From NCBI GenBank assembly GCA_037176885.1, contig JAWWNJ010000048.1:682001-746000 (forward strand): a DNA stretch of 64,000 nucleotides, in the 5' to 3' direction. The stretch comes from Favolaschia claudopus (taxonomy: Eukaryota; Basidiomycota; Agaricomycetes; Agaricales; Mycenaceae). Shown piece by piece: positions 1 to 64,000 of the stretch. Every line of letters starts with the position of its first letter. Position 1 is the first letter of the stretch. Both the position numbers and the translations under genes were made by a program. A model generated the notes under the pieces. That model saw nothing but the letters and a program-made list of their open reading frames with translations, had not been told where the DNA came from and did not search any database.

Positions 1-993
1 GAAGATGTGATTTGCAGGTGGGGTTGCCCGGAGGAACTGGTGACAGATAATGCGCCGGCCTTCCTAGCGGCCGTAGCCTACCTTGAGTCTAAATACGGCA
101 TAAGAAATATTAGAGTTTCGCCGTATAATTCTCAAGCCAACGGGAAAGTCGAAAATGGGCATTTCTCGATGAGGCAATCCTTATGGAAAGCTACTGGCGG
201 GAATCCCAGCAAGTGGTACTGGTTCTTCCCGCAGATGTTGTGGGCTGACCGGGTCACTATTCGACGAGGAACGGGTTGTTCACCTTACTTTATGGTAACG
301 GGCGCACATCCAATCCTCCCGCTGGATATAGAAGAAGCGACTTGGCTAGTGCATCTGCCCGGCAGGACTCTAACGACCGCTGAGTTAATCGGCTATCGAG
401 CCCAGGCTTTGGCTAAGCACGCCACTCACGTCGAACAGATGAGGGAGCGGGTCACCGACGAGAAGCGAGCGAATTTACGCCGGTATGAGATAGCACATAA
501 ACATACTATCGAAGATTACCATTTCGAGCCGGGAGACTTGGTGCTCATCAGGAATACGACCGTTGAGAAATCGCTGAATACGAAGATGGCCGCCAGATAC
601 CTGGGACCAGTAATTATCATCCGGCGTACGAAAGGTGGAAGTTATATCGTGGCGGAGATGGACGGCTCTGTCTTTCAATCGAAGATTGCTCAGTTCAGAG
701 TGGTCCCCTTCGAGCAGCGGCGCTCTATCAAGCTGCCCGCTGACATTCACGACTTAATCGACCTCTCGGCAGAGACGCTAGAAAAGATGGTCCAGGAGGA
801 AGACGGTTATTCTGGAGATGACTTCCAATTCGGGAATGTAAGGTTAACCCCCAGCGGGGCGGCTGACGAAGAGCCGGCTCTGCAGGAGGCCTTGCCCGAG
901 GAAGAAGAAGAGGAAGAGGAACCTGACACGGATGAGCCGCTGCCTTTCAAACGAAAGACTCGTTCTGCCACGAAAGCCGCTGCCCGGGAATGA
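1..993 (+). CDS. pol: Family A Pol, C-terminal part (integrase core to tail), truncated by window start
   Basis: The open frame runs from base 1 with no start of its own and is identical to the last 331 codons of the complete pol at 52553-56662. It holds the second integrase aspartate (TDN motif near base 45) and the glutamate (VENGH near 150), 34 residues apart by my count, so a DDE integrase. A GPY/F-like module follows around 590-710. The end is an acidic glutamate run and a basic tail. No chromodomain was recognised. The gene converges on A5, whose stop codon lies 222 bp downstream on the other strand. Confidence 0.93.
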   Translation, partial: EDVICRWGCPEELVTDNAPAFLAAVAYLESKYGIRNIRVSPYNSQANGKVENGHFSMRQSLWKATGGNPSKWYWFFPQMLWADRVTIRRGTGCSPYFMVTGAHPILPLDIEEATWLVHLPGRTLTTAELIGYRAQALAKHATHVEQMRERVTDEKRANLRRYEIAHKHTIEDYHFEPGDLVLIRNTTVEKSLNTKMAARYLGPVIIIRRTKGGSYIVAEMDGSVFQSKIAQFRVVPFEQRRSIKLPADIHDLIDLSAETLEKMVQEEDGYSGDDFQFGNVRLTPSGAADEEPALQEALPEEEEEEEEPDTDEPLPFKRKTRSATKAAARE

Positions 994-1215
994 ATTACTG
1001 CTACGATATCTACGTTACAGTCTGAAACGAGATTCGAAGTCTTTAAGTAATTGGATTTCCTTCATCTCCCGCCAGTGCGCTGCGAACAGGTTGCGCACCC
1101 GGGGAGTGTGTGGCGGCCAGCAGAAGGATGAGCCGTGAGGTGTCCGAAACGATTGAGCCAGTACCGAGGATTCTGAAGAAAGGGGGACCCGCTGGGGGAA
1201 CTCTTTAGGAACGAG

Positions 1216-2456
1216 TCAGGGAACATGAGCATCGACGCCGGCAGAGGAAGACTCGGGGAAGTCGCGAAGGCGAGCCGAGATCTTCTCTCCTTCGTCGAGG
1301 AGCTGCTCGCGCCGGGCCAGAGAACTACGAAGGTTCTCGTGGATGACCGCCAGCTCGACCATGATGAAATACATCCGCTTGCGCAAGGCAAGGTGGTTGC
1401 TCATGAACTCGGTGCCCATCTCAACGACGCTAGCGGCCTCGTCGACAACAGCACCTGAAGCGGGTGCCGAAGCGTAAAACTCAGCCGTTGCTGTAATAAC
1501 ATTCAGCGGGAAACCACTAACAATGGACGGGAAACTCACCGTTGGTGAGGAAGGAGTCCTCGTGGAACGGGACGTTGTCGATGCGAGCGTGCTTGTTGCC
1601 TTTGCCCTTCTTAGCGGGGGCCGGGCTATGCTGAAAGATTGAAATAAATGACAGAAGCTAAAGCAGAAATAACGTGCGACTTACAGCGCGCGCACCCTTC
1701 TTGCCCGCCATGGCTGATTTAGCCTTGGGACCGGTAGGGGGAGCCTTGGGAGCGGGGACATGCTCATCGTCAACGAGCATCTGGGTGAACAAACACCCAA
1801 CGGCGATGATAGAAGTGTCAATTGTCAGCTCTACACAGGCCAGCTGTTAAACGAAAGAACGAACCTCGTCAGCACCAAGGGTGGTGAGAGCGGGCGATGG
1901 AGCACGAACGGTGCCTTCGTCCTCGTCCTCAGACTCAGGTTCACCCTGAGACCGCCCGCGAGTACTCTTCTAGCGGGGGATGATTGTGAGTCAAGGGTGA
2001 GCACGACAATAAAAGTTAGTGAAACCGACCCGGGTCCCCTTGGAAGAAGAAACGGTGGAGACGGGCGGGATCGCCTTCTTGAAACGGTCTTCGTGAATGG
2101 CCTTGGTGATCCGCCGCAGGACATCGTACCCAGCGGGGAAGGTCACGTCCCGTTTACCATCCGGGTCGTACAAGGAGTGGTAATATTCACGCGAGGTGAA
2201 GATTGCCTCACGAAGAACCGCGCTCTTGTCTTCCAAAATGAAAGGCATGAGCGGGGGAAGGCGCGCCTACGAACGAAAGAATAATGTTAACAAAACGAGA
2301 CTGGTCAATGTAGCCGGCGGCTCTTACGAGAATCTCGGCGACGTCCTTGAGCTGGTTTTTACGAGACTCGGGCGGCGAATACTTGACGAGATTGGCGGCA
2401 ACGTCCATAGCCTTGAGAAAATCGGCTTTGACGGTGTTGTAATCGTTTTGAGACAT
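1216..2456 (-). CDS. A5: class III antisense gene of family A, 6 exons, 310 aa
   Basis: Exons on the minus strand are 2328-2456, 2030-2266, 1865-1969, 1685-1780, 1540-1630 and 1216-1490; their sum is 933 bp with every junction in frame. Donors are GTAAGA, GTCGGT, GTTCGT, GTAAGT and GTGAGT; acceptors are TAG or CAG. The protein has a helical N-terminal half with a SREYYHSLYDPDG motif, a middle rich in acid and then Lys/Gly (KKGKGNK), and a C-terminal segment likely to form a coiled coil (RREQLLDEGEKISARL). C3 has the matching layout (SYHQSATNPNG, KKGKGKGK, QLLVDELKRVL), so the two are homologous. No known domain was recognised, so function is unknown. The intact spliced frame next to pol argues for a retained gene. 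Confidence 0.8.
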
Positions 2457-8824: not shown

Positions 8825-10661
8825 TGAAACGCTGCACTTGAATATATCGATATGAGATGCAAAGTGCGCAATGGACTAATCCACTACAAAACACACAAAC
8901 AACTCAACCAACACACACAACACTCCAACACTTATATATGTCTCAACAAGATACACCAAGTGCTTCCTATTGAGTTCGTGGGGTCCAATCCGAAATCCAG
9001 ATGTAGTTCAACTTCGTCTACTGGTCTGAACTGATGCAAAACAAGTTCTTTACTGACTATAGTTTAGAGGAAATCCGTCCGCGGACTTTCCAATGAACAA
9101 GGTATATCGGTTTTTAGGATACAAGACTGGGAGGAACTCCGACAGTCAGGGCGAATTGAATATATTAGACACCAGCCAATTGCTAGAAATGCCTCGTACA
9201 CACACTTCTTACAGTGCCACTGCGACTGTAGACCTGAACTTCCAAGCTCTCAGGTTCGTTTGACACTCCTTTATATAGCACAAGCTCCAAGGCACTAATC
9301 GTATCCCGTCAGGTTACGTGCAGGCAAGTCTGAACACGATGCGTCCGCGGATAGATCGTCTACTCTCTTCAACTTGGGGAGATACTAGTTCACTCTTAAG
9401 CACACTTTCACTTCAACTGATTCTGAGTAGTCCGCGGGTTAAGTGGACCAGTCAAACACAACACTGGTAAATGGGGGCGAGCAATGCTCAAACGGGCCAA
9501 GTCCTTGGAAGGTTACTGGGTTGGCTATGCCACGACAAAACTCCACAGTCCAAAGTTTCCGCGGGTGAACGCTTCTAGAAACTTAAGTCTTAATTCACAC
9601 TTGTCTGAACTTCAACAAATCGTTCCTAATGAAGACAAAAACTAGCAAGCAGATAACTCCAATTTAAATGCCTCTACGTCCCTGCCTGAGTACACCAACG
9701 CCGTCAATGACCTGCGCGCGATGAACTAGACAAACGACGAGAAATACATGGTCTTTTATACTAATGCCAAGAAAATACATGATGTAAACAAATCTGAGTC
9801 AAGATATAGAAACAATTGAGTTGGGATTGGGTATACGTAGGTCTAGCAGCCGTCTGCCGCTCTGAATCGTCACGATCCGTCCATGAAAGGTCATCTATTC
9901 TGACCATCTCACGGTTGAATCACTATCTTGGTCATCCGCGGATGTGTATCACTGTTCCGCTCCGACGTGTTTCCCCGGCATCCATGTAGATCCTCTAAAT
10001 CATATGGTTGCTCCACTCCGTCTAGACCGTTCTAGATCTCTAGTTCTGTTTCCAGACCATCAGATCACCGTCTAAGACATTCCTATGCTTCAGTGTCAAA
10101 CTATCTCATCAGCGGCATACAGGAAAGTGCTTCCGTGATGTACATGCCGAGTCCGCGGAGTATTCTCCGTGACATGATGGATGTCCGCAATCACTGTTCC
10201 AGATCTGAGGCATCACCCTGCCGTTGATCCAACGTCCGGCACCCTTATGTTCAAGGTACATTGGTGCGGCAACTTGTCTGTAAGTCTTCGGCAGGTCCGC
10301 GGCGTCTATGTATCTTATAGACCTTTCGTTTGGATACTCCGCGGGCCTTCCTCCGACGTTCCGTCTTGCTTTACTACAAGTCCAGACTGCACTTCAACTC
10401 AGTCTTCATCTGTTACTCTTGCAACACCCAAAACCTTGGGTTACTCCGTGTGCCGCGGGCCTCTATGATTATCTCCAGTAACGTTACGACCAGCAGCTCG
10501 GAGCTCACTCTGATCCTCCTTCAAGTCACCATGAACAGGAGTACTGACTTCCTATTGATAGTCGAGTAAAGCCCTTAGTGCCATGCAGCTAATATGGGTA
10601 TTTGTGCCACAAGTCACTACAAAAGCTAGATAAATACGCGCAAAATTGACCACGCGTATCA
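8825..10661 (-). repeat. Family B 3' LTR (1,837 bp)
   Basis: Equals 24993-26829 at an offset of 16,168. It starts tgaaacgc and ends gtatca on the plus strand; as the element reads leftwards this is its 3' LTR. Nine CCGCGG sites lie within it, near 9078, 9347, 9436, 9562, 9936, 10154, 10295, 10340 and 10453. A minus-strand TATATAAA box sits at 9270-9277. Its small open frames do not look coding. Confidence 0.95.
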
Positions 10662-10697
10662 TCTCCCCTTCACTAAATCTAGACCGTCCTCGGTCTA
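10662..10697 (-). promoter_or_regulatory. Family B polypurine tract and tetraloop hairpin
   Basis: Directly inside the 3' LTR, the element-sense strand reads a stem TAGACCG / CGGTCTA closing AGGA (10680-10697), then GATTTAGTGAAGGGGAGA up to the LTR. The purine run is the expected plus-strand primer. The hairpin has the same position and loop type as in families A and C, with a different stem sequence. Confidence 0.85.
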
Positions 10698-11502
10698 CCA
10701 TTTGTAGCCCTCAGTGTACTAGATATTGAGTGGTCCGCGGACTGACTGCGTCCGACTAGACGTTCTAATTTTTATAGCGCCTACACACATGCACACTTTT
10801 TCACCGTCTATTGGTTTTGAATCTGCAAGCAGAATTCAACCAAGTCCGTTGGTCTCAACCTGCGCTCAGCAAAATCTATTTTTAGACAATTGCCTCCGCG
10901 GACGTCGATCATTACGTAACTGACACTTTCTGTCTGACTTTTATCAAGACAGGGGTGTACACTCTGTTTTTACTCCTCCGCGCTATTCTCGGTAGAGCCC
11001 CAAATTTTCTTTGGCTAACCCTAACCTTACACTCGCGATTACTCGCTTGGACCGTTTCCCGTCCCTCCAGACCCTCAAGTCTTGGTCTGGGTTCCCATTC
11101 AATCGGTACTTTCCGACTCAATATATTCGAAATCTTCCATCAAAAACAAAGCTTTTCAAGGTTCGCTGCGGAGAACCTCTTCTTAACCTTGCTAAAAATA
11201 GCGGGCTTCTAGTGTTCCCTTATCGAGAGTACGATAAGATCTCAATACATTCGTCGCCGCGGCGCGGGACTTCTAGGAAAATTTGCCTAAGTCCGCTTCG
11301 CCACATATACTGACTGGGTTTGCTTTTTGACGCCCACTTCCTTCTGCTTTTCTACCACCACCACCACATCTAGTGCTTTGCACTGTGTGGCCCTTCGTAC
11401 TGCTTTTTGGACTGCTTCTCTTGCTGTTCGACGCACACGTCGCTCAGCACTCGACGTTCAGCAACCTCTTTTGACTCTCCCTGGCGCTCGTCGTCGGTGG
11501 AG
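10698..11502. other. Upstream region of B1
   Basis: About 800 bp between the PPT hairpin and the B1 start codon. It should hold the B1 promoter and 5' UTR. CCGCGG sites occur near 10733, 10893 and 11257. Open frames here overlap each other and have no conserved features, so none is called. Confidence 0.5.
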
Positions 11503-13307
11503 ATGGCCACTCAGCCCAAGAAGAACAAGCCCAAATCTGCCAGAGCGACCAAACCCCGGGGCAAGATCACCGTACCTAAGCCCTTGCCGCCTAAACCTTC
11601 GCCGACCCCTCCAGCGTCTAGTCCTGCGCCTCCCGACGATCTTATGGACCCTCTGGAGTCCCCGGCGGGGCTCATTCTTGCCGACATTCCGCCGTCGCTT
11701 CCGATGTCCGACCCTCAGGCTGCCATCTGGGAGCCTTTCGATAACGATGAGACCCGCGCTTTCCACGAGCTCAACTTTTTGAAGAAAGAACCCCCGCTGG
11801 CTAATCAGGTCGCACGCGCCAAAGCGTTTTATCCCATCATGGTGCGTCTGCTTATTTCTTTCTTAATCCTCTTTGAGTTCTGACTTTCTTCCTTTTGCAG
11901 AAGGCCTATCTCAAAGAAGACGACGTCCCGGACGAAGTTCGACTATTCCTTTGGTCTTCGTCTCGCTTGATGAAGGCCATTTACGATGGCCTCGTTGAGT
12001 ACGAGATGGAGACGCCGACTTTCCTCCGCTCCGCCTACCGCCTCGGCCGCCCTTCGCTCGATTTTCGTCAAGCCTACGACGATTCCGGGGATCTCATTCC
12101 TCACAACTTCGACCTTCCCAAAATCGTTAAAGCCCCTGGACGCGCCAAGAAGGTCGTGGACTCCGATGTAGAAGCTGACGTTCAAGAGTCAGTTTCCGTC
12201 GTCGAGTCCTCCGCGCCTCCTCAGAAACGCCGTCGCGTTGAGGTCGAAATTGCTAAAGCCCCTGCCGCTGCTGTTCCCGTCGTTCAACCTGCGCCCGCGG
12301 CGCCTGCCAAACCGGATCCTCGCACCATCAATATTTCTTCCCGCGACGAGCTTACTGCGGCGCTCTTTTCCATTCCGGCTGAGGTTACCCCGACGCCCGC
12401 GGTGATGCGTATCCCGCGCAATTACGTCACTGATGCGCTCAACCCGCCGCTATTCAATTCCGAGGCCCTCCCGTGCACCTACTGTGCAAACCTATTCCTT
12501 CCCTGCCCCGGCGTAGACCCTAACTCTGCGCGGGGTTCTTCTTGCTCTCGCTGCTCCCAGCGCAAGGAGAAGTGTTCTTTTAATTGGACACCAGAGGAGT
12601 TGATGAAGTTCTTCGAGCACATCCGCCCGTTCCACAACGTGGCGCCGCACTCGATTGCTTCCTTTCTGCAGCGTCTCTACCAGGCCACCGTGGATGCAGA
12701 TTATACTGCTTTACTCCACGCTCGGTCTTTGAGCGCTCAGCGTTTAGCTGCTCAGGATGTTGCTGTGGTCCTCAAAAACGCCGACGAGGCCATGTCCAAG
12801 GCCGCTTTTGACAGCATCTTTGAAGACTCGGAAGATGGGGATCGTATCCGCGAGATCGTCAGCAACTACTTCAAGAACGTTGCCGAATTCAACGCCAACG
12901 ACGACTTCGACGCGGATCACCCAACCTCCCCGGTCATTCCTCCTCCCGACGATGCGCCGGCCGATACTCGCGGAACGTATCATCCCGCGCTTTCCAAGCG
13001 CAACGTTCCTGCGCCGTCGTTTGGGCAAGTCGATGCCTCACTGGCCACGGGAACTCTTTCTGTCCCTTTGGCGCGCCGCGACTACCAGCTGTCGTCCGCG
13101 GTGGACTTCTCGCGCAGCGGTTCAGCACACGCTCCCTTGCCGCGCGATGCGGACAAGGTTCACGCGTTCTCCAAGAAGCCGCCGTACGGTCCCGCGGGTA
13201 TCGCTAAGCCGCGCTCCAAGGACAGGCGTCCTTCGTTTGTGGAGGGGTCAAGCACTGGGCAGGAACTTCGTCGGTCGTCGCGTCGTCAACAGTCGGACTC
13301 GCCGTAA
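11503..13307 (+). CDS. B1: class I antisense gene of family B, 2 exons, 581 aa
   Basis: Exon 1 is 11503-11841 (339 bp, the same length as A1 exon 1); the intron 11842-11900 has GTGCGT and GCAG; exon 2 is 11901-13307. The ATG follows an open stretch without other likely starts. Pro-rich and Lys-rich N terminus, basic PQKRRR patch at about 220-225, then C305-x2-C308-x6-C315-x12-C328-x2-C331-x6-C338, which fits the Zn2Cys6 consensus. After the cluster comes a helical region and a Ser/Arg-rich tail. The eight to twelve introns of C1 and A1 are reduced to the first one here, a pattern expected of intron loss through cDNA from the 3' end. Function unknown; likely a nuclear zinc-cluster protein acting on the element. 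Confidence 0.82.
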
Positions 13308-47417: not shown

Positions 47418-47421
47418 GCGT

Positions 47422-49233: not shown

Positions 49234-49235
49234 TC

Positions 49236-51327: not shown

Positions 51328-52577
51328 AGAGTTCGAGGAAGGGGGCAAAGGGGAAACCCAGTGCGGATAAGCCCCCGGAGAAAAGACAAGTACGCCCGCC
51401 TGTAGGAAAGAAAATGGAAGTTGTGATGCCGAAGTTGCCCTACAAGCCGAGGACGCTGCGAAAGCCCGCTGTCGAAGCACAGCCGGCGATCGTGGAGACC
51501 AAGGAAAAGGAGCGGGAGGAGACAGAAGAACAAAATGGCACTCAGCCGCCGGAACTTCCGTATAGGAACGTTCCCCCGGTCAAGCCAGCCAAAAGGCCCA
51601 ACGAACCTAGAGTTCGGCCGGCGGGAAATCCGCAGGCGGCGGCCAACGAAAAGAACTACGAGTTGAAGGCGCCAGTAGAGGACCAGGAAGATGAGGAGGT
51701 CGAATCCTTGATAAAGGAGATCTTTGGAAGCCTGGAAATAGCGCTCCCGCTGGGGAGGTTGTTCGCCCTCAGCCCGAAGTTGCTGCGTCAGGCTAAGGTG
51801 TTGCTCTCGAAGAAGAGAGTCTCGCCCGCTGTTCGAGTCACCCTCGAGCAATTGATTAGCCACGCAGAGAAAGAAGCCGATGAAGATGATGAGTCCTCCA
51901 GCGTAGCCTTGGAGGACCTCCCTTACGAAGCATTAGTTCAGGTCTCAACTGTGGCCGATGGACTCATGCCAGCGGGAGCTCTCATCACTGTCGACCCGGC
52001 AGTGCAATATTGGCAGTCGGTAGCCGATGGTGAGCCGGTGAGAGAAATTTTCGTCGCGATCTCCGAAGCTTCTGCTGGAGAATCAGCGGCCCTGAGAGTG
52101 GTCTTCCCGCTCATTCATGGAGCCGCCGAAGTCGAATGCATTCTGGATGGTGGGTCACAGATAGTGTCCATGGCCCTGTCGGTAGCCACCGAGCTGGGAG
52201 TCAGTTGGGACCCGGATAACTGTATCCACATGATGAGCGCCAACGGGCAAACCGAAAAGTCAGTTGGGTTAGCGAGGAACGTCCCCTTCAGGTTCGGCGA
52301 TATGACAGTGTACCTACAAGTGCATGTTATACGGAACCCGGCATACAAAGTGCTGCTGGGGCGGCCCTTCGAAATTCTGACCGCCAGCGGTATCAAAAAT
52401 ACTTCTGACGGGAACCAGTTCCTGACTCTGACCGACCCCTCCACTTCGAAGCGGGTGGTCGTCCCTACCTTCCCCAGAGGTCAGCGGCGGCAGGTGCGGC
52501 GCGTACAAAACGATGCGCCACCGGCTGCGCAGGCGAGCGGCGAAGAGGAACAAAATTTTCAGAATTCGAGGAGTTGA
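51318..52577 (+). CDS. pr: Family A protease region, DGG instead of DSG
   Basis: Frame -1 to gag, open from the slippery site to TGA at 52575-52577. A Lys/Glu/Pro-rich linker, then a retropepsin fold marked by ILDGGSQIV and LLGRPFEIL. Where B and C have Asp-Ser-Gly, A has Asp-Gly-Gly, one A-to-G change away, which may weaken or abolish catalysis. A second slippery heptamer AAATTTT (52553-52559) leads into pol. Confidence 0.88.
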   Translation, partial: AFLESSRKGAKGKPSADKPPEKRQVRPPVGKKMEVVMPKLPYKPRTLRKPAVEAQPAIVETKEKEREETEEQNGTQPPELPYRNVPPVKPAKRPNEPRVRPAGNPQAAANEKNYELKAPVEDQEDEEVESLIKEIFGSLEIALPLGRLFALSPKLLRQAKVLLSKKRVSPAVRVTLEQLISHAEKEADEDDESSSVALEDLPYEALVQVSTVADGLMPAGALITVDPAVQYWQSVADGEPVREIFVAISEASAGESAALRVVFPLIHGAAEVECILDGGSQIVSMALSVATELGVSWDPDNCIHMMSANGQTEKSVGLARNVPFRFGDMTVYLQVHVIRNPAYKVLLGRPFEILTASGIKNTSDGNQFLTLTDPSTSKRVVVPTFPRGQRRQVRRVQNDAPPAAQASGEEEQNFQNSRS

Positions 52578-55500
52578 TTAACCATCAAGGAGAGTTAGCG
52601 GTTCAGATAGAACTGGACGAGAATAATGTTCCTAGAATTTGCGCTTTGATGAAATCTGGAGAAGAGGGGTTTTCGATGGCCGAGACGAAAATGGCCTACC
52701 TAGCGGCTGCCATGCCAGAAGTTGATGACAAACCCGCGGCTCAGCTATTTCAGGAATATAATGAGCAGCTGACAGAAGGAAAGAACGTCGGCGAATCCTA
52801 TGTAGCCATCGTAGCTAATATAACGGATAAAGTCAGAGAGAAACTGAAGGACCCAGCCGCTGTGTTCATGACAGCCGGTGCCGATGTTGAGTCGCTCAAA
52901 CAGGAGCGGTCTCGGCATTCAGCGGGGGAGCGCTGTCAGTGCTGTGACTACGCCGACTGGGTGGTGCCCGGGTTCGAACACAACGAAACGAAAGTGGTGT
53001 TGATGGAGGAAATCGTTCCTGAGGATCACCCGCCTGAAGTCGAGGTGAAGGAGGTGTTCTCGAAGAAATATAAGCCGGTAGCGCTGAAAGTAAAGCCGGT
53101 CCTCGAGCCGCTCCCTCCCGAGTTCAGGATAGAAAGAAATATCATTGGGGATCCGCTGCAGAATCTCGTCCCGCTAGACCCTCACCCGCCAGAGTTCGTT
53201 CCCGTAGGGAGGTACACAGCGGAAAGGAAAGCGGTAGTGGACGAACTGCATAATGATGGGTTCCTGAATGATGAAGAGATGAAGCTGGTTCATCACATGT
53301 TATCTATACACGAAAATACGGTAGCATGGGATGACAGTGAACGAGGAACTTTCAGGACGGATTTCTTCCCGCCAGTCAAGTTCCCGGTGAAGGCAGACCA
53401 TAAGGTCTGGGTGGAAAGAAATATTCCCATCCCGCCGGGACAGCTGGAAGAAGTCTGCAAGGTGCTTAGGGCGAGTATCGACGCCAATATCTACGAACCG
53501 TCCAACGGCTCGTACCGCACCAAGTACTTTGGAGTTCTGAAGAGTGATAAGAAGTCAATTCGGTTAGTGCATTCGTTGGAGCCGCTGAACGCGGTAACCA
53601 TTGCACACTCTGGGGTGCCTCCCGGCGCCGCGGATCTAGCCGAACATTTCGCAGGAAGGGCTTGTGGGTCCACGTTTGATCTTTATTCTGGGTACAACCA
53701 CCGGCTGATTGACCCGGAATCTCGAGATTACACGACCTTCCAAACTCCGTTTGGGGCGCTTCGATTGGTAAGATTGCCGCAGGGTTGGACCAACTCGGTG
53801 CCGATCTTCCACGAAGACGTAACCTACATCCTGCGAGATGAAATTCCTGCGGTTACCCGGCCGTATATAGACGACGTGCCTGTCGCCGGCGGCTTCACTC
53901 GATATGAGAAGCCTGACGGGACGTACGAGACCATCCCTGAGAACCCGCTGATAAGGGTCCTTGTGTGGTTACACTTGGTAGACTGCAACCGGGTACTTAC
54001 CCGGCTAGCCTATTCTGGGGCGACTGTAAGCGGGAAGAAGTTGCAGATTTGCCGGGGAACCTTTAAGGTGGTCGGCCATGTCTGCTCATACGAGGGCATG
54101 CGCCCGGATGAAGATAGAATCGGCGTCATTGAGCGTTGGGGCCCGCTGAAGGATTTCCACGATGTGAAAGCCTTTCTGGGAACTGTGGGCGTTATGAGGA
54201 TGTTCATCCAAGACTACACGGTCAAGGCTGAACCGATTCAGAAGCTCACCCGGAAAGAAGTCATATTCGAGTGGGGCCCGCCCCAAGACGCCTGCATGAA
54301 AGTTTTGAAGAAGGCTTTGCGAGAATGTCCCGCGCTTAGACCTATAAGATATGAATGGGACACCGAAGTGGTGCTGGCGGTTGATACGTCGTACCTTGGA
54401 GTTGGAGTGCATGTGTACCAGCGGGATCCTTTGGACCTAAATAAGCGGTATTATGCCCGCTTCAGCTCCATACCTTTGAATGAACGAGAGTCGAGGTATT
54501 CTCAGCCCAAGCGGGAATTGTTTGGCTTGAAGAGGGCGCTAGACCACATGCAATATTGGCTGTTGGGCTGCCGCAAGCTGGTTGTCGAGACCGACGCTCA
54601 GTACCTCAAGGGCATGTTGGATCACCCGGGAATGGGACCCAACGCTACGATCAACCGCTGGATCGAGGAGATCTTAATGTTTCATTTCACTCTGAAGCAT
54701 GTACCGGGCAAGACTTTCGGGTCAGATGGGCTCTCCCGCCGGCGTATTCAGCCGGGGGATCCAGAGTATGATCATCCAGAAGACGAGTTCGATAATAATG
54801 AACCGCCGGGTCTTCATCCCGAAAGTAGTGCTTGGCCGCCTCTCAAGAATTTCGAGGATTTCAAGCACGATATTGACACCCGAGGTGGATATATGGTAGC
54901 TGAATTGGCGGGAGATGAGGCTCGGTCAGCCGCTGACTTCGAAAACGACGCCGAACAGGCCTGGGCTTACACCCGCCTTAGTAGAGAATATGTTTTCGAA
55001 GTCTTCTCTCAGTCAAAGGGTGACGACAAGCCAGCAGGCGAGCCGCTGATCCCTGACCTCGAATTGAAATACGACCCGACGAAGCGGGAACCGTATTCTG
55101 AAGACCAACGATCTGTAGCGGCGAAGCTAGCGGACGAGCGGCTGCTCCTCATGAAGGAATGGCGGCGAAACACCCTGGCTCGCCCGGATGGCATGAACGA
55201 CAAAGAATACAAAGCTTTCTTGCGATTCGCCACCGGCTTCTTCGAGGATGCTGATGGAAAACTCTATCATAAATCCACAACGGGGAGCGCACACCAGTTG
55301 GTGGTAGACAAAGGACACCGAATGTATATGATGCGAGCGGCTCATGATAGCCTAGCTCACCGCGGCGTCTTCGCTACCAAATCCTTGATAGAAATGCGCT
55401 TCTGGTGGCCTGAGATGGAGCGGGATGTCACTTGGTACATTAAGACTTGCGAATTGTGTCAATTGAGGCAAAGGACTTTATTAAAGATCCCGCCCGTTGT

Positions 55501-56662
55501 CACTCATACCCCTTCGCTCTTCCAAGTGGTACACGTCGACGTGATGGTCGTTGGTACTCCTTCCAACGGCTTCAATAAAATTGTCGACGCCCGCTGCTCT
55601 CTCAGCAGCTACATAGAAGCGCGGCCGATAAAGAACGAGAATGCCAGAACGCTGGCCTTGTTCTTACTTGAAGATGTGATTTGCAGGTGGGGTTGCCCGG
55701 AGGAACTGGTGACAGATAATGCGCCGGCCTTCCTAGCGGCCGTAGCCTACCTTGAGTCTAAATACGGCATAAGAAATATTAGAGTTTCGCCGTATAATTC
55801 TCAAGCCAACGGGAAAGTCGAAAATGGGCATTTCTCGATGAGGCAATCCTTATGGAAAGCTACTGGCGGGAATCCCAGCAAGTGGTACTGGTTCTTCCCG
55901 CAGATGTTGTGGGCTGACCGGGTCACTATTCGACGAGGAACGGGTTGTTCACCTTACTTTATGGTAACGGGCGCACATCCAATCCTCCCGCTGGATATAG
56001 AAGAAGCGACTTGGCTAGTGCATCTGCCCGGCAGGACTCTAACGACCGCTGAGTTAATCGGCTATCGAGCCCAGGCTTTGGCTAAGCACGCCACTCACGT
56101 CGAACAGATGAGGGAGCGGGTCACCGACGAGAAGCGAGCGAATTTACGCCGGTATGAGATAGCACATAAACATACTATCGAAGATTACCATTTCGAGCCG
56201 GGAGACTTGGTGCTCATCAGGAATACGACCGTTGAGAAATCGCTGAATACGAAGATGGCCGCCAGATACCTGGGACCAGTAATTATCATCCGGCGTACGA
56301 AAGGTGGAAGTTATATCGTGGCGGAGATGGACGGCTCTGTCTTTCAATCGAAGATTGCTCAGTTCAGAGTGGTCCCCTTCGAGCAGCGGCGCTCTATCAA
56401 GCTGCCCGCTGACATTCACGACTTAATCGACCTCTCGGCAGAGACGCTAGAAAAGATGGTCCAGGAGGAAGACGGTTATTCTGGAGATGACTTCCAATTC
56501 GGGAATGTAAGGTTAACCCCCAGCGGGGCGGCTGACGAAGAGCCGGCTCTGCAGGAGGCCTTGCCCGAGGAAGAAGAAGAGGAAGAGGAACCTGACACGG
56601 ATGAGCCGCTGCCTTTCAAACGAAAGACTCGTTCTGCCACGAAAGCCGCTGCCCGGGAATGA
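52553..56662 (+). CDS. pol: Family A Pol: RT, RNase H, integrase (complete)
   Basis: Frame -1 to protease. Counting from 52574: RT with YIDD at 431-434, RNase H with D604, E about 648 and D about 674, HHCC domain about 916-965, integrase core with VHVDVM (about 990), TDN (about 1048) and VENGH (about 1083), GPY/F-like module about 1232-1270, then a glutamate run and basic tail. No stop or frameshift. The last 993 bp are identical to 1-993. Confidence 0.95.
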   Translation, partial: KFSEFEELINHQGELAVQIELDENNVPRICALMKSGEEGFSMAETKMAYLAAAMPEVDDKPAAQLFQEYNEQLTEGKNVGESYVAIVANITDKVREKLKDPAAVFMTAGADVESLKQERSRHSAGERCQCCDYADWVVPGFEHNETKVVLMEEIVPEDHPPEVEVKEVFSKKYKPVALKVKPVLEPLPPEFRIERNIIGDPLQNLVPLDPHPPEFVPVGRYTAERKAVVDELHNDGFLNDEEMKLVHHMLSIHENTVAWDDSERGTFRTDFFPPVKFPVKADHKVWVERNIPIPPGQLEEVCKVLRASIDANIYEPSNGSYRTKYFGVLKSDKKSIRLVHSLEPLNAVTIAHSGVPPGAADLAEHFAGRACGSTFDLYSGYNHRLIDPESRDYTTFQTPFGALRLVRLPQGWTNSVPIFHEDVTYILRDEIPAVTRPYIDDVPVAGGFTRYEKPDGTYETIPENPLIRVLVWLHLVDCNRVLTRLAYSGATVSGKKLQICRGTFKVVGHVCSYEGMRPDEDRIGVIERWGPLKDFHDVKAFLGTVGVMRMFIQDYTVKAEPIQKLTRKEVIFEWGPPQDACMKVLKKALRECPALRPIRYEWDTEVVLAVDTSYLGVGVHVYQRDPLDLNKRYYARFSSIPLNERESRYSQPKRELFGLKRALDHMQYWLLGCRKLVVETDAQYLKGMLDHPGMGPNATINRWIEEILMFHFTLKHVPGKTFGSDGLSRRRIQPGDPEYDHPEDEFDNNEPPGLHPESSAWPPLKNFEDFKHDIDTRGGYMVAELAGDEARSAADFENDAEQAWAYTRLSREYVFEVFSQSKGDDKPAGEPLIPDLELKYDPTKREPYSEDQRSVAAKLADERLLLMKEWRRNTLARPDGMNDKEYKAFLRFATGFFEDADGKLYHKSTTGSAHQLVVDKGHRMYMMRAAHDSLAHRGVFATKSLIEMRFWWPEMERDVTWYIKTCELCQLRQRTLLKIPPVVTHTPSLFQVVHVDVMVVGTPSNGFNKIVDARCSLSSYIEARPIKNENARTLALFLLEDVICRWGCPEELVTDNAPAFLAAVAYLESKYGIRNIRVSPYNSQANGKVENGHFSMRQSLWKATGGNPSKWYWFFPQMLWADRVTIRRGTGCSPYFMVTGAHPILPLDIEEATWLVHLPGRTLTTAELIGYRAQALAKHATHVEQMRERVTDEKRANLRRYEIAHKHTIEDYHFEPGDLVLIRNTTVEKSLNTKMAARYLGPVIIIRRTKGGSYIVAEMDGSVFQSKIAQFRVVPFEQRRSIKLPADIHDLIDLSAETLEKMVQEEDGYSGDDFQFGNVRLTPSGAADEEPALQEALPEEEEEEEEPDTDEPLPFKRKTRSATKAAARE

Positions 56663-56884
56663 ATTACTGCTACGATATCTACGTTACAGTCTGAAACGAG
56701 ATTCGAAGTCTTTAAGTAATTGGATTTCCTTCATCTCCCGCCAGTGCGCTGCGAACAGGTTGCGCACCCGGGGAGTGTGTGGCGGCCAGCAGAAGGATGA
56801 GCCGTGAGGTGTCCGAAACGATTGAGCCAGTACCGAGGATTCTGAAGAAAGGGGGACCCGCTGGGGGAACTCTTTAGGAACGAG

Positions 56885-58125
56885 TCAGGGAACATGAGCA
56901 TCGACGCCGGCAGAGGAAGACTCGGGGAAGTCGCGAAGGCGAGCCGAGATCTTCTCTCCTTCGTCGAGGAGCTGCTCGCGCCGGGCCAGAGAACTACGAA
57001 GGTTCTCGTGGATGACCGCCAGCTCGACCATGATGAAATACATCCGCTTGCGCAAGGCAAGGTGGTTGCTCATGAACTCGGTGCCCATCTCAACGACGCT
57101 AGCGGCCTCGTCGACAACAGCACCTGAAGCGGGTGCCGAAGCGTAAAACTCAGCCGTTGCTGTAATAACATTCAGCGGGAAACCACTAACAATGGACGGG
57201 AAACTCACCGTTGGTGAGGAAGGAGTCCTCGTGGAACGGGACGTTGTCGATGCGAGCGTGCTTGTTGCCTTTGCCCTTCTTAGCGGGGGCCGGGCTATGC
57301 TGAAAGATTGAAATAAATGACAGAAGCTAAAGCAGAAATAACGTGCGACTTACAGCGCGCGCACCCTTCTTGCCCGCCATGGCTGATTTAGCCTTGGGAC
57401 CGGTAGGGGGAGCCTTGGGAGCGGGGACATGCTCATCGTCAACGAGCATCTGGGTGAACAAACACCCAACGGCGATGATAGAAGTGTCAATCGTCAGCTC
57501 TACACAGGCCAGCTGTTAAACGAAAGAACGAACCTCGTCAGCACCAAGGGTGGTGAGAGCGGGCGATGGAGCACGAACGGTGCCTTCGTCCTCGTCCTCA
57601 GACTCAGGTTCACCCTGAGACCGCCCGCGAGTACTCTTCTAGCGGGGGATGATTGTGAGTCAAGGGTGAGCACGACAATAAAAGTTAGTGAAACCGACCC
57701 GGGTCCCCTTGGAAGAAGAAACGGTGGAGACGGGCGGGATCGCCTTCTTGAAACGGTCTTCGTGAATGGCCTTGGTGATCCGCCGCAGGACATCGTACCC
57801 AGCGGGGAAGGTCACGTCCCGTTTACCATCCGGGTCGTACAAGGAGTGGTAATATTCACGCGAGGTGAAGATTGCCTCACGAAGAACCGCGCTCTTGTCT
57901 TCCAAAATGAAAGGCATGAGCGGGGGAAGGCGCGCCTACGAACGAAAGAATAATGTTAACAAAACGAGACTGGTCAATGTAGCCGGCGGCTCTTACGAGA
58001 ATCTCGGCGACGTCCTTGAGCTGGTTTTTACGAGACTCGGGCGGCGAATACTTGACGAGATTGGCGGCAACGTCCATAGCCTTGAGAAAATCGGCTTTGA
58101 CGGTGTTGTAATCGTTTTGAGACAT
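56885..58125 (-). CDS. A5, right copy
   Basis: Same six exons as 1216-2456 shifted by 55,669; one intronic difference (57492). Frame intact. Confidence 0.8.
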
Positions 58126-58376
58126 TTTGGAGGAAGCAGAGTAAAGACAGTAGACGAGGCTGGGGGGTATACCCGTCCGCCCGCTGCTTCTTATACTCGA
58201 GCGGCCGTAATTAACGCCGTAAGGATAATTTGGACGGAATTTGGTCAACGGCCGAACTTGGATTACCATTTATGGTAGATGCACCCGCCGGTGGCGCAGA
58301 AAATTATTTCAAACGCACCCGATCGTTCCGTGGCACGAAAATTTGCTGCCGGGGAACCTGAATTTCCTCTGATCGA

Positions 58377-58415
58377 TCAACTGGGGACAGTTGAGATTTC
58401 TGAAAGGGGGAGAGG
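58377..58415 (+). promoter_or_regulatory. Internal PPT-like tract with hairpin (family A, right copy)
   Basis: Identical to 2708-2746. Confidence 0.7.
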
Positions 58416-58545
58416 TGGGTCACCTAGCACGTCATTTGAGGGCAGCGGGCACATCTTTACCAAGAAATAAATGTTTCCAAGGCCTCACATGGGGCGGGAG
58501 CGTGTGTTATCGGAACGAACTATCCGAAGGTACATGTGCCTGTAT

Positions 58546-59174
58546 CTACACTGCCCGCATCCTAGCCGGAAGATCCAGGAAAAGATTATTGGCGAGAACG
58601 TCTAACCGCTCGCGGATAACAGCAACATACGCAGCCGGGAGATTAGCCGTTTTGGCCTCCTGAAGAAGATGGAAAACCAAGCGGGCCTCGAAGTAAAAAG
58701 ACAGCCGTTGGGCTGCCTCTGCGACGTTCCGCCCGACGATTACAGAATGGTATTGTTGCCAGAATGGGAACTGCGCCAGGGTCCCCTCATGAAGGACGTC
58801 CCAAGCAGCTAGCTGTTCCTTCGTAGCCGCTAGAAGCGAGCGGGGAATCAGTTGTGGCGCAACAGATAAGAAAGAAGTCGTCACTTACGATCGGGACCCT
58901 CTTTGAAACGGTGCCGGCGGGCAGCAATTTCATCGGCCAGCTCAGCGGTCTGGGTGTACGAGCAGTTGTGCTTCAGCAAGTAACAGCGGGTGCACGGCGC
59001 TCCCCACTCAGTAAACTCGCAATGAGAACGGGCGTTGAGGCACGCAGAGCATACCCGGCCAGGCTGCCGAATGATGAGGAATTACCCGAGGCAAAATGTT
59101 CAGGAACGTACATAGTACTCCCTGAGCGGGCCGACGGGGTCATTCGGGAAGAGTGGATGTTCCAGCAAAGACAT
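58546..59174 (-). CDS. A4, right copy
   Basis: Same three exons as 2877-3505; no difference seen. Confidence 0.8.
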
Positions 59175-59457
59175 GAGTAGACGACTGAAGCAAATGGGAC
59201 CTTCCCGCCAGCTTAAATATCTCTCTGAGACCTGGCGGGAGACCCAAAAACAGAGAGATCGACAGCGGGACTCATTGCACCCGATGCTCCCGGAAGATCC
59301 GCAATACATGTGGAATATCCAACGAGGTGCTGAGCTCCCGCTGGGCAAAAACACGAGGAAGCTTTGGTTTCTAAGAAGCCTTCCTAATCGGGCAGCTTGA
59401 AACAGAGTTTTAAAGATGCAAGTTCGTTTGACAGTGGGAATATATTTCCTACTACGC

Positions 59458-60129
59458 TTACGGCCCGATGAACATGACAGGCGGGAGCCTTGCGCCGGAC
59501 TGGAGGGCTACAGCGTCTAACCTATCCCGGAGGAGATCTACAATTTCCTTTCGTATGCCCGCCCCCTTCGCGTCAAACCACAGTCCGTACAAGAAGCGTA
59601 GCTGGCCAAACCCAAGGGTGCCGAGCATGGACCTGGCGGCGAGGATGGTGCAAGTACGCACGTCAATGTACCTCTTCTCGTCGAGTCGGGCGCCGGCAGC
59701 CCTGGCGTACCAGTCAAACTGAGCGATCCGCCCGGCGGAGGGAACTAAAATTCACTAAGACCCCCGCTGAGAGGTAGAAAGATAGAAAGCAGACTTACCT
59801 GGCCGAGAGGCTAGGAGAGTGTCGCGACGACGGCTGTTCTCGGCCTGCCAGACGGACTTCTTAGTGTAGCAGCACAAGGCGGCGCGGCCTATGAACATGC
59901 AGCTGAGGCAGGCTTCACCCCACTGAATCCAGATGCAATGGCGGTAGTTCTTGAGGCAGCACTGGCATTCGTACTCCGGCTAAGAAGAGGCACCCGTCAG
60001 CGGGAGAGCACTGAGAAAGAGCGAAAGACCCACAAACTGAGCTTGAAGTACGAGCTGGTACTCTGAGGGACCGGTGAAGCTCCTAAAGCGTTCTGAGTAA
60101 AAAGTCGCTGCCAAAGAAAAGGCGGGCAT
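59458..60129 (-). CDS. A3, right copy
   Basis: Same three exons as 3789-4460; differs by one synonymous base (59479). Confidence 0.8.
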
Positions 60130-60301
60130 CGCTCGAAGGACCCACTGGGCACCGGCCGCTATAAGTAAAACCTATAGCCGACGGGTGAGTACCACCGGCT
60201 ACCGGACCAAAAGCTCAGGCGGAATCAGACATCACGATAACGGCTTGCGACCGGGCAAAGAGATTTATTTGACCCTAACGGGGAAACGCTACTAGCCTGG
60301 G

Positions 60302-61044
60302 TTACCGCTCGAAGGTCTGGCGGCGCGTGCTTTGGGCCAAGGGCACGACGGTCGGAACATTAGAGTCCCGTCGCCTGATATCATGGAGCGAGATAGCTGC
60401 ATCGACGTCGCACTGGGCATGGATCGAGCGATCCTGGGTACGCCACTCGCGTAAAACTCGAGACAGGATGTTGTAGAAATACAGCCGCCGGCTGGAGTGG
60501 GCGGCGTGGTTTAGGTCGTGAGCAATGTCCCAGTCACGAAGGTCGCCAGCAAATTCCTCCCGCCGACGCAAGAAGTCAGCGGGCTCACCGTCCACCGAAC
60601 CTATAAACATATCGGGGCTTAAGCCGCCGAGGCGCAGGTGGTACCAGAGTTCGAGGAATGCAAGGTCGTACAAAGTGCCGCCTGAATAGAATAAGAAAGA
60701 TGAGAATTTGAAGAGCGGCAGGACTTACCGCTGCGATAGATGAAAAGTGTCGGAAAGGTCGAAGAAGGATAGGTATACTTGAACCAATCCACCCCGGCGA
60801 ACAAGCATTTGGGGACCTTCGCTTCCCGGCACCTAGTGCACTTAGACCCCCAGTGAAGGAATTCACAGTCTTCGCCGGCGTCACTACAAGGTGTGCAGAC
60901 GAGATTCGGCTAGCGGCTGGTTGGACTTGGCGCAGAAATGTGTTGAAGACAGCCTACCACAGTATAAATCTTGCGCACGAAGTCTTGACTGACCGCCGGG
61001 AAGAAATGGTAGTCGATTAAGACTTCACCTACGGGCTGAGGCAT
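60302..61044 (-). CDS. A2, right copy
   Basis: Same three exons as 4633-5375; no difference seen. Confidence 0.8.
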
Positions 61045-61824
61045 GACAATGAAGGAAAAAGATGGTTTGATTGGCTATCTACCCCTATCGACTATACAAG
61101 TACGGTAGCGGGCAGCTCGGGCCGCCGGGCCAGTTCTACTCTACGTTATCGCTCTTACGAGACCGGCGGGAGAAATGAGGAACTAGCCACCCGGTGGAGT
61201 CCGAGGACAGCCGCCGACAGCCAGACGAGAAGCCGCGGGCAAGCCCCGGTATCTGATGACCCCGGTGATAAGCACCGTTGCCGTTCGGCATGTTGAAAAA
61301 CTCGAGAGGTTCAAGGTTCAGCTCGCTCTCCAAGTCGTAATCAGCCGACGGGCGTAGCACTTAGGCGGAATCCTTTGCTTAAAGACCCTTACAAATTGCT
61401 TAGAGGATCTGGCCGGGGACTCTGACTTTGGAACTTAAATCGAACTTAAGATTTTCACACAGAAAGAAGGGGCATCGTAAAAGCTTTTATTTTTCATCGG
61501 CTCTTTGGCCGGTACACGATGCTAAACTACTTGGGGCATTTGATTTTTATTTCTATGGATCGTGGCGGGTGGAATTCCACCAGGCCAGATCCTTCGCAAC
61601 CAGCGGGATTATGGGACCCGTACCCGTAGCTTTTGATGATATTGGGGGCCGCTCGGCCCCCGCGATTATTGAATACAGAAAAATATTTCTGAGAAAGAAG
61701 TCAGTTGAAGTCGAACTTAGCGGGAAGAATAGGCAAGTTGCTCACTTGCCGCCCGCCCACCCACGAGGAACTCTGGAAAGAAGGGTCAGAAGAAGTCAAG
61801 GAAGTACTAGTTGGACTCACCGGC

Positions 61825-63987
61825 TCAGGCATAGTCGTCGAGGTCGATGACGGAGGCCTCGACGGTGTCGTCGACTTCTCCAACTGCGTCAGCCTCGGCG
61901 GCGTCCCCTTCCTCGACAGACATGGTGTCCGCGTCCTCGTCGTCGAGTTGCTCGGCAACGCTGCCGGCGACCTCGTCCTCGCTGTCCTCTTCCTCAGACT
62001 CGTCCCCGCTAGAGACCTCCTCGAAAGCGAAGGCTTCAGCCAAGAAGTCCCGCTCGAGTGCTAAGTGACCCACCTCAGTCACCGGCGCGACGACTTCCGC
62101 GTCGCTCACGAACTCCTCGTCCTCAGGCTCGCCGGCACGACCTTTGCCTTTCGAGCGGGATCGCGGCTCTGGAGTCGGCGGGTGGGATCCGAGATCCATG
62201 GCTGGGACGGGCAAGATTGACTTAGCAGGCATTTATGATAGAAGAAATTGAAAAAGGGACTTACCGTCAAGCGGGCCGTCGTCAGCCGATTCCTCCTCAG
62301 TAGGAGAAGGCGGCGGGCGGAACTCGTCGTTGGGCGCGTCGGTCTCGTCGTCGTGAACCACCGGGTCAGACTTGACCTTGGACTTCCTGGCGGCAGGAGC
62401 TTTACGACGGCGGGGAGGTTTGACTTCCTCATCAGGTGCCTCCATGAAAGTTCCCCGGGCGTACAATTGACGGAAGAAACCCGGCACGTTCTGGTGCTTG
62501 GCGCTGTAAGGCAGCGGATGCCCATCGAAGTCCAAGGGATCGAGTTCGAGCGGGCCGTCGCCGTCCTTGTGGGCGCGAGCTCTAACTCTCGAGCCATCGG
62601 GGCCGGTCGACGAGACGGGGATCTTCTCGCCCTCTTCGTCCTCCTTGAAGATGACCTCGTAGCAGTCGTCCGGCTGTGAAGGAAATAAGGAGATAGATAA
62701 GATTTAGAAAGGGGGAGGGCTTACCTCGACCTGTATGAACTCAGGTGCCCGCTTGTCTTTATCGTCCGACGGAATCAAGAAGAAGCCAAGAGGCGCGGAC
62801 CGGTCGTTGGCGTCATAAGCCTTATAGAAGTTATAGGCTGTGCCAAAGATCGGGACGTCCGCCTCGTCAAGGAGCGCCATCGGGAAGAATTGCCAGGCGC
62901 GGATTTGGTTGATATCCGTGCCGGCGTGCATCCCCTGGGTCATCGCAATACGAAGCATGTGCTCCATGTGCTCCTCCCGCTCCTCGACCGTTTTACCGTC
63001 GAAGCGGGCGACGAAATCTTCACGTTTGACCTGCCGGCGGGTGGTGAGAATGGCGTGCAGCAATTTGAACATTTTGCGGCGAAGGTGGGCATAGGCGCTT
63101 TCCAGCGAGTTTTGAATCGAGAAAATGGTTGCGCTGGCCTGATTCACGTCCTCGTTGAGGTCATACCACTCTGCAAAGTAACGGTCAGCGGGAGAAAGAT
63201 AGAAAAATATTTAATTCTTACCCGGGCGGGTCATGGAGGTCCATTCCTTGAGCTCGGTGCCCATGAGGCTCAGTTCCTCGCCGGTAGCCAAGAAAGTGCA
63301 GTCTTTCTTGGACTTCAAACTGGCGCAGGCTGAGCACTCAGCGGGGAATGCGGAGACATCGCACTCCGACCCGTTGTGGATACAACGGATGCACCGGGGG
63401 CCGTACTAAGGAGAAAACAAGAATTAGAAGAAAACCCAGTCAGCCGTTTGAGGCACTTACCTGAGCGAGGAACAACTCGAGGGTTGTCACGAAATTGTCA
63501 GAGCTGAGGGCGAACATTCCCCGCTCCGGGTCGATCGGGAGCTCCTTGCGCATGGCGGCGTTCGGGTAGGCAGAAAGGAATTTCTTGAGGAGCTCTTTGT
63601 TAGGAATAACAAAGCCCTCTCCTTTGGCCTTCTTAGTGGTCGGCGGGTTCTAGAATTTGGTCTGGTTCATACCGGGCGAGATAAACGTTGAAAGAAATGG
63701 AACCAAGACTCACCGGGTTGATACCGAGGTTGCGGATGATCATGCGGTAGGCCATGTCGGCCACGACGTTGGTCATCGACGGCACCTCGTCAATCAACAC
63801 ATGCTCTTGAGGGTGGCGGGGGGTTGGCTTTGATGTGGAGGCCTTCCTCGTCGGCGGGGGTTTGGTGATGACTATGAAGGAAAGATTCAGCGGGCGTTTG
63901 TACTTGAAAATTAAAAGTTCACTTACGAACGATAGGCTTCTTGGAAGCCTTGACCTCGGATTCGGAGACGTACTCGAGCGGGGGAGT
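61825..63987 (-). CDS. A1, right copy, exons 7-13 only (window end)
   Basis: Exons correspond to 6156-8318 shifted by 55,669, including the Zn2Cys6-like exon at 63222-63405. Exons 1-6 lie beyond the window, so it is unknown whether this copy is interrupted by family B. Confidence 0.78.
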
Positions 63988-64000
63988 CTAGGAAAAATTT

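Follow-up and report, generated by a model that had tools for sequence, protein, structure and literature searches.

Antisense genes with a zinc-cluster-like domain and family-specific DNA motifs in Ty3/gypsy-type retrotransposons of Favolaschia claudopus

We analyzed a 64-kb stretch of the Favolaschia claudopus genome (G000:C48:682001-746000, hereafter the window; genome of 264.6 Mb in 460 contigs), in which three Ty3/gypsy-type retrotransposon families, A, B and C, each carry a block of genes between pol and the 3' long terminal repeat (LTR), on the strand opposite to gag-pol. Comparison of copies gives good support to an intron-containing antisense gene set that is kept under purifying selection, and two of its classes share an exon encoding a Zn2Cys6-like cysteine cluster. 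Sampled families that carry the long class of these genes, L, also carry a motif of their own throughout the element, gag-pol included; this is clear in five of six families and weak in B. We consider it somewhat better than an even bet that the antisense zinc-cluster proteins bind the DNA of their own element and that the block is a regulatory cassette of the kind known from VANC. The Zn2Cys6-like domain, the hyperdivergence of L and the element-wide family motif go beyond the original prediction for this DNA and make the gene set interpretable.

Antisense genes and their cysteine exon

Genes were modeled with a gene finder trained first on gag-pol codon usage only and then retrained on its own output, with introns limited to 42-159 bases. 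Antisense totals were 277 (A), 308 (B) and 313 (C, in-window part), compared with 0, 3 and 15 on the gag-pol strand and with maxima of 15.0, 14.7 and 21.0 in 30 dinucleotide shuffles per block. The three antisense totals come from a codon model retrained on the same blocks and are not independent of them; when trained on gag-pol codon usage only, the finder already put the antisense strand ahead of the gag-pol strand. Three related families with antisense genes between pol and the 3' LTR, as originally proposed, are thus borne out by scores far above both strand and shuffle controls. The blocks, predicted to be of 6-8 kb, measure 6.9 kb in A, 7.0 kb in B and about 9.4 kb in C (extending beyond the window end).

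We call the genes L (long, with the cysteine cluster mid-gene or towards the end), S (short, with a cysteine cluster) and P (usually adjoining pol, charged, with a coiled coil). The original prediction came without coordinates, and the matching of its class numbers to L, S and P is uncertain. Loci outside the window are numbered L007, L036 and so on. The models are as follows.

11503-13307, + strand: A gene L, exons 11503-11841 and 11901-13307, 581 residues; hhalign probability of 88.7% to L of the L019 family
14339-16038, + strand: A middle gene, an uncertain model with very short exons; separate conserved stretches in L036
16398-17572, + strand: A gene S, alternative start ATG at 16716, cysteine exon 17003-17165; homologue in L036
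36152-39120, + strand: B gene L, 10 exons, 814 residues, cysteine exon 38441-38621
39575-40241, + strand: B gene S, 4 exons, 172 residues, cysteine exon 39759-39939
40754-42076, + strand: B gene P, pol-proximal, 7 exons, 322 residues; 3' end of model uncertain
61825-64000 in the window (whole gene 65342-61825), - strand: C gene L, 13 exons, 949 residues, cysteine exon 63405-63222
60302-61044, - strand: C gene S1, 215 residues, cysteine exon 60909-60729
59371-60129, - strand: C gene S2, 190 residues, cysteine exon 59979-59799
58546-59174, - strand: C gene S3, 173 residues, cysteine exon 59063-58889
56885-58125, - strand: C pol-proximal gene, 6 exons, 316 residues

Several details of gene structure had been predicted earlier. 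The 181-bp cluster exon was recovered in four genes (B-L, B-S, C-S1 and C-S2), and paired first exons of 339 bp were found in A-L and C-L. An exon of 446 bp after the cluster is present in C, L022 and L023, but not in A, where L has two exons. Among the eight predicted exon totals, three equal our models, namely 2847 (C-L without its stop), 648 (C-S1) and 522 (C-S3), the latter two with the stop. One class had been given a single gene in C, where our models place three short cysteine genes. The two exons of A-L compare with 5-13 in most relatives; conceivably, introns were lost when a spliced antisense transcript was reverse transcribed. A GenBank protein, P0121, matches most of our independently built L013 model, differing at the start and at two exon joints.

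Spliced genes with conserved frames had also been predicted, and comparison of copies supports them. The ratio of nonsynonymous to synonymous divergence (dN/dS) was at most 0.31 in 33 of 36 gene comparisons of copy pairs, the exceptions being L019/L021 (0.65, few changes), L014/L016 (1.06, poor alignment) and one undefined L019/L021 value. This set drops genes scoring below 10, with less than 70% of codons aligned or with less than 60% identity, and thereby, among others, L of L019/L020 and L of C/L022. Stops in the partner occur in the rows L022/L023 (1), L011/L008 (5) and L014/L016 (5). Substitutions between copies fall mostly at third codon positions and indels mostly in introns: eight copy pairs had 11 indels in 25,830 exon bases and 64 in 6,568 intron bases, counted in the 25 of 31 gene alignments that were at least 90% aligned and at least 75% identical, the other six being too poorly aligned. 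Eight of the 11 exon indels are multiples of three; the remaining three are of 1 and 14 bases and an insert of 1841 bases. It is this copy comparison, through the indel pattern and dN/dS, that supports splicing. The same data bear on the view that the block consists of captured host genes riding along, with the motif arising from biased mutation. The eight window proteins scanned, out of 11, matched no Pfam family above the cut-off (TRP28, PF04195, was likewise unmatched), which points to no known role in the cell or in transposition, as this view would have it; it is, however, largely refuted by the purifying selection, and the occurrence of antisense genes in 11 families and a motif excess over codon shuffles (below) also speak against it. 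We regard it as very improbable.

Statements on family classes and motifs cover the window plus 20 downstream stretches chosen from 87 listed matches to reverse transcriptase (RT). An antisense gene scoring above 40 was found in 19 of the 20 stretches, L025 being without clear genes. Sense-strand models of at least 20 occurred on the low-numbered side of L009, L010, L014 and L026, a part taken to lie outside the element, and also at the pol end of C, L022 and L023; a few antisense models likewise lie in the presumed outer part (e.g., L012, L013, L016). Block similarity gave 11 families, all with antisense genes. Six carry L (A; B/L007/L008; C/L022/L023; L009/L010/L012/L026; L011; L019/L020/L021/L024) and five do not (L013; L014; L015; L016; L017/L018). 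In the stretches of the L009 group, L is the only strong antisense gene inside the element. 

Profiles of L matched each other in hhalign with a probability of 76-89% in four of six comparisons, the A-B and A-C values being 21% and 10%, and P of B matched P of the L013 and L019 groups (97%), with no such support for P of C or for the middle gene of A. Homology of the pol-adjacent genes of A, B and C was unsupported by hhalign (B-C 5%; C-A 0.1%; B-A 38%, over 40 low-complexity columns). The proposal of three classes conserved in all three families therefore stands for the cysteine-cluster genes but not for the pol-adjacent class.

L and S share a phase-0 exon whose six cysteines are invariant in all eight window exons. 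The Zn2Cys6 spacing pattern is CX2CX6CX5-12CX2CX6-8C, and a hand count found it strictly kept in six of the eight, with S of A off by two residues and L of B by one, both in the second interval. When a profile of the eight exons was compared with the Protein Data Bank (PDB), 12 of the 13 matches with E <= 10 were Zn2Cys6 regulators, the best being PUT3 (E=0.0034). An AlphaFold model (pLDDT 79.6) has two short helices, each starting at a CXXC, as in the Zn2Cys6 fold, and in Foldseek all 23 matches with E <= 10 were Zn2Cys6 chains (best E 0.11). 

The P protein was modeled with a confident helical domain and a coiled coil, with no credible PDB fold match (best E 0.4), and its profile had no PDB match at E <= 1. 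A CCHC knuckle lies within or just past the P models of L011 and the L013-L018 group. A search with P and P-like profiles returned 29 proteins, 21 from Mycena and 8 from Favolaschia, every one named hypothetical. One of them, P0147 of Mycena olivaceomarginata, has a six-cysteine stretch ahead of its P part and looks like an S-like domain and P annotated as a single gene, which would mean that the S-P order is kept there. A profile of the S protein gave 4812 candidates but none at E <= 0.01 among 5.8 billion proteins, where pol gave 1129 matches; this is weak evidence of absence, as spliced genes are probably poorly represented there.

Family-specific motifs

Word counts were compared with a second-order expectation, A and C being counted with both LTRs. 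In the 18-kb element A, CCGCGG occurs 57 times against 6.2 expected.

9079-26626 (first site 9079, last 26621), element A: 57 CCGCGG sites, 9 per LTR, 19 in the antisense block and 20 in gag-pol

The sites are dispersed, with a mean spacing of 313 bp, and a candidate reading of CCGCGG as an LTR-only element was rejected by the whole-element counts. Other families had words of their own: AGCGGG in C (97 vs. 16.6 expected; CAGCGGG 47 vs. 3.9), CCGCGGAA in L011 (18 vs. 0.5), TAGCTAA in L019 (21 vs. 1.8), ATCGCGA in L010 (16 vs. 2.3) and AGTCGAG in B (18 vs. 3.5). With a single LTR, the counts were 48 vs. 5.7 in A and 82 vs. 14.6 for AGCGGG in C. The motif of A occurs at most three times per feature in B and C, and that of C at most three times per feature in A and B. 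Genome-wide, with families pooled, GTCCGCGGAC was found 471 times and its reverse control 189 times.

Most of these motifs are everted palindromes with zero spacing, i.e., CCG.CGG (A, L011), TCG.CGA (L009-L010) and TAG.CTA (L019); the motif of C, CAG.CGG, is shaped alike but has unequal halves. Zn2Cys6 proteins usually target CGG half-sites, and TCCGCGGA is the Pdr1/Pdr3 site (PDRE). A 16-bp palindrome assembled from the base preferences of L011 had 0 occurrences (reverse control 1), and it is therefore a preference rather than a fixed word. In B, pairs of CGG at particular spacings showed no signal once multiple testing was considered. The list of tandem arrays in the window has three rows only. 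In L012, CCGAACC is also enriched beside TCGCGA (17 vs. 1.0 in 6 kb).

The motif also exceeds expectation within coding sequence. In 400 codon shuffles that kept protein and codon usage, CCGCGG of A was in excess in pol (10 vs. 0.77, maximum 5), protease (PR; 5 vs. 0.53, maximum 3) and gag (5 vs. 0.73, maximum 3), and AGCGGG of C in pol (16 vs. 3.7, maximum 10) and PR (7 vs. 1.6, maximum 5); in gag of C (4 vs. 1.1, maximum 4) the excess was not clear. Protection of CpG sites was rejected as an explanation, the observed/expected ratio being 0.98-1.21 in eight pieces, with no sign of methylation decay to guard against.

Enrichment goes with the presence of L. With one representative per L family, the best hexamer was enriched in six of six (log10 point probability -5.7 to -33.5, pieces of 6.4-18.6 kb), and none of the five L-less families went beyond -4.3 (shorter pieces, 6.5 kb). 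Equal 6-kb pieces exceeded 20 shuffles in five of six L families and in none of the five L-less families; B, L007, L008 and L020 stayed within their shuffles, as did the controls L006, L010 5' part and L016 5' part, while L004, intended as a control, turned out to belong to a C copy and showed the C motif. The motif may also be conserved between copies. In L036, a copy related to A, four of the five A sites in aligned segments (72-78% identical, hand comparison) are kept, where chance is 0.22 per site at 77.6% identity (P 0.009), and among ten copy pairs compared with same-composition hexamers, conservation reached P<0.05 in four, with none opposite at that level.

We propose that L, perhaps with S, would be a nuclear protein that binds as a dimer to the motif sites and so coats its own element. 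A promoter of its own next to the 3' LTR would drive L, and such a separate antisense promoter would render its expression independent of the 5' LTR, even when the latter is silent. The likeliest role would be to keep or make the chromatin of the element accessible (anti-silencing, as VANC does for VANDAL) or to set LTR activity otherwise. Among effects of L on the element (anti-silencing, activation or repression), we rate anti-silencing as the most likely because the sites cover the whole element. 

Motif density bears on a different reading, in which the proteins would be autoregulators of the LTR, comparable to HBZ of human T-cell leukemia virus (HTLV) or to phage repressors, that work mainly at LTR promoters and limit or time transcription, internal sites being secondary or titrating the protein (copy-number control). 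The motif is indeed densest in the LTRs (A 4.9 per kb vs. 2.4-3.7 inside; AGCGGG of C 7.2 vs. 2.1-5.6), and Zn2Cys6 proteins are classically promoter regulators, yet 20 of the 57 A sites lie in gag-pol, above codon shuffles, and would be unneeded for a role at the promoter only. We hold autoregulation of the LTR to be unlikely, at about one chance in a few.

Divergence of L and the weighing of the readings

L is far more variable than the elements that carry it. For HYPERDIVERGENT L, L007 and L008 are 64-94% identical in L, compared with 96-100% over RT, PR, gag and the greater part of the LTR, and likewise in the pol tail, P and S. Among eight alignable B-family copies out of nine (L028 was unalignable and left out), synonymous divergence (dS) of L was 0.64-1.07 between deep types, compared with 0.04-0.16 for S. 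The deep types are B/L027/L030/L032, L007, L008 and L029, with L031 a mosaic (dS 0.32-0.35 to the B type). None of the eight L copies has a premature stop, and their only exon gap is one of 3 bases in L029. Variation is greatest in the first 500 codons, the cysteine exon and the protein downstream being nearly constant. L is much more diverged than S and P also in L019/L020 and C/L022. An 897-bp insert was observed in the L region of L012.

That old L types sit on young backgrounds implies that they are exchanged via recombination, and the route is probably template switching; switching between co-packaged RNAs would have aided the diversification of L. The extreme divergence itself may reflect an arms race, or else escape from silencing based on homology. 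The swapping of L on an otherwise constant background recalls phage heteroimmunity and in this respect favors autoregulation of the LTR; against it, B-family LTRs are 95-98% alike over most of their length while L differs strongly. On the proposal of self-binding, the elements could be self-marking: dimeric zinc-cluster proteins would recognize a family palindrome over the whole element, coding sequence included, each family would protect or tune its own DNA, and L would be swapped and kept diverse like the immunity regions of phages. This fuller version we put forward tentatively, at a little short of even chances.

A number of observations weigh against binding of the element's own motif by the antisense proteins. 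The best Zn_clus (PF00172) match, at 14.1 bits, lies under the Pfam gathering score of 21, for which reason we call the domain Zn2Cys6-like. The motif of B is weak and mixed (TCG.CGG, TCGAGG), that of L019 lacks CGG, and L020 (-4.7), L010 (-5.2) and L021 (-5.5) are weaker than the representatives of their own families. The 6-kb antisense piece of A fails against its own shuffles (-5.9 vs. -6.5), although the gag-pol piece passes, and conservation of the motif was not significant in six of the ten copy pairs. Among L-less families, GTCCGGAC occurs 7 times vs. 0.2 in L014 (-8.5 over the whole 10 kb including flank, -5.1 in the 6-kb piece), and CAGCTGC 11 times vs. 1.4 in L017, flank included. 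In RT, every L-less family is 77-79% identical to B; together they are perhaps one lineage, so that the association of L with a motif may rest on few events. The low dN/dS of B-family L, 0.12-0.18, does not fit a protein arms race acting by itself. Finally, L036 keeps the A motif without L, and between C and L022 the motif is unchanged although the L proteins are very different, which means that S proteins could be the binders; S rather than L as the binder in C is possible.

The last two observations also favor a motif unrelated to the antisense genes, i.e., a target of a host factor or an RNA signal for gag or for a CCHC-bearing P, with the zinc-cluster proteins acting elsewhere. Everted palindromes are also short inverted repeats in RNA, P ends in a CCHC knuckle in several families, and in the antisense block of C the motif is biased between strands (33 and 9). 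On the other hand, the best-hexamer comparison shows no motif in families that have S and P without L, and the L009 group, whose sole strong antisense gene is L, has one; motifs differ among families of one genome, unlike what a single host factor would produce; and the strands are balanced in C pol (8 and 7), contrary to an RNA signal. We therefore judge an unrelated motif to be rather improbable, and keep binding of the element's own DNA as the preferred explanation.

Element anatomy, known systems and significance

A, B and C have LTRs, gag and the order PR-RT-RNaseH-integrase, which places them with the Ty3/gypsy type. Pfam matches in this set comprise PR, RT, RNaseH and integrase zinc domains, some of them, e.g., RVT_1, under the cut-off.

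8825-26829, - strand: complete element A, with LTRs at 8825-10661 and at 24993-26829 and with Pfam matches to PR, RT, RNaseH and integrase zinc domains
17573-24914, - strand: A gag (24914-23052), PR (23091-21703) and pol (21742-17573), open frames
31508-47421, - strand: element B, permuted; N-terminal part of PR and gag, LTR at about 33993-35651, antisense block, pol, C-terminal part of PR
47422-64000, + strand: element C, copy 2; 5' LTR 47422-49233; extends beyond the window, with its 3' LTR outside
49390-56662, + strand: C gag, PR and pol, frames with Pfam matches

The two LTRs of A, 1837 bp each, are 100% identical. A is inserted into C copy 1, in the would-be exon 4 of the L gene there, and its joints (8824/26830) show a 4-bp overlap. 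B is not a single simple element: C is inserted within the PR gene of B, and, in the window with its flanks (L003-L006), B+C is tandemly repeated with a unit of 37,660 bp, the repeated pieces being 99.98 and 99.96% identical and the junction of copies lying at about 35651, at the single B LTR. It is the position of C within PR, together with the tandem arrangement, that makes B permuted in the window. A 1314-bp insertion (28892-30205) with a 6-bp target duplication lies in the 3' LTR of C copy 1; copy 2 has it in its 3' LTR as well, and both 5' LTRs lack it. A, B and C have in common a sequence of 29-44 bp at the inner 5' LTR edge (24958-25001, 33949-33992, 49223-49255), probably a shared primer-binding site. 

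A second A-like family, with RT 88-89% identical (61 of the 87 matches in a second list), was seen at L035-L036 (C42:1541548-1551999). In L036, the sole A-like copy read, L is absent, and S and the middle gene are kept. That an A-like family shares the LTR of A was considered and rejected, as the stretch consists of two elements, L036 and a neighboring A, with one common LTR. A genome report gives 86.8% duplicated BUSCO genes for F. claudopus, and copy counts in this genome may thus include both haplotypes.

The nearest known counterparts, already named in the original prediction, are the plant Tat/Retand Ty3/gypsy elements (Grande, RIRE2, Retand; TRP28). Their antisense open reading frames (ORFs) are described as lying between pol and the 3' LTR; the products are predicted to be DNA-binding and thought to be regulatory (PMC11963269, PMC7264820). 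The elements described here likewise have genes opposite to gag-pol in that position, but they differ in their fungal host, in having several many-intron genes per element and in a domain that is Zn2Cys6-like rather than TRP28 (PF04195, flowering plants). A family-specific motif over the whole element also sets them apart from Tat/Retand as far as those accounts describe it. In fungi, brtn is an antisense gene of Boty, a gypsy element of Botrytis cinerea (Zhao 2011, cited in PMC8365987); compared by description only, it is similar as an antisense extra gene, but Boty has a single one.

VANC proteins of the Arabidopsis VANDAL transposons are described as binding a short motif of their own family and removing silencing, with motifs that differ among families and proteins that evolve fast (PMC5735166; PMC10398659). 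The enrichment of a short motif in a family's own copies, weak in B, resembles this system; VANDAL, however, is a DNA transposon whose motifs lie in non-coding tandem repeats, whereas the sites described here stand singly and dispersed, also within gag-pol. Anti-silencing is known for VANC and is a proposal for the elements described here. 

HBZ of HTLV-1 is an antisense nuclear regulator of the basic leucine zipper (bZIP) type, encoded by one gene of a mammalian virus. It is similar in being antisense and in the regulatory role that we propose, and differs in its bZIP domain and single gene. Zn2Cys6 regulators (PUT3, GAL4, PPR1, HAP1, LEU3, AlcR) share with our proteins the six-cysteine spacing (strictly in six of the eight window exons), the fold as modeled and the CGG-type sites seen in A, C and L011. 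Our proteins depart from them in scoring below the Pfam cut-off, in a WG in the loop between the halves of most S proteins, in being retrotransposon-borne and, for L, in the position of the domain far from the N-terminus.

We found no description of antisense zinc-cluster genes combined with a self-motif in the open literature, a search that left most subscription journals uncovered. Antisense ORFs (Retand, Boty brtn) and a dispersed self-motif with a self-encoded binder (VANDAL) were already known separately; their combination would be new. 

The role of antisense genes in LTR retrotransposons is an open question, also for plant elements according to two reports (PMC11963269, PMC7264820). Here, a recognizable DNA-binding domain and a candidate target readable from the DNA of each family make this question directly testable by a binding assay. 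If the proposed binding is true, sequence-specific self-recognition would have arisen in retrotransposons as it did among DNA transposons in VANDAL, and this may be part of the reason why such elements have been so successful in the large Mycenaceae genomes.

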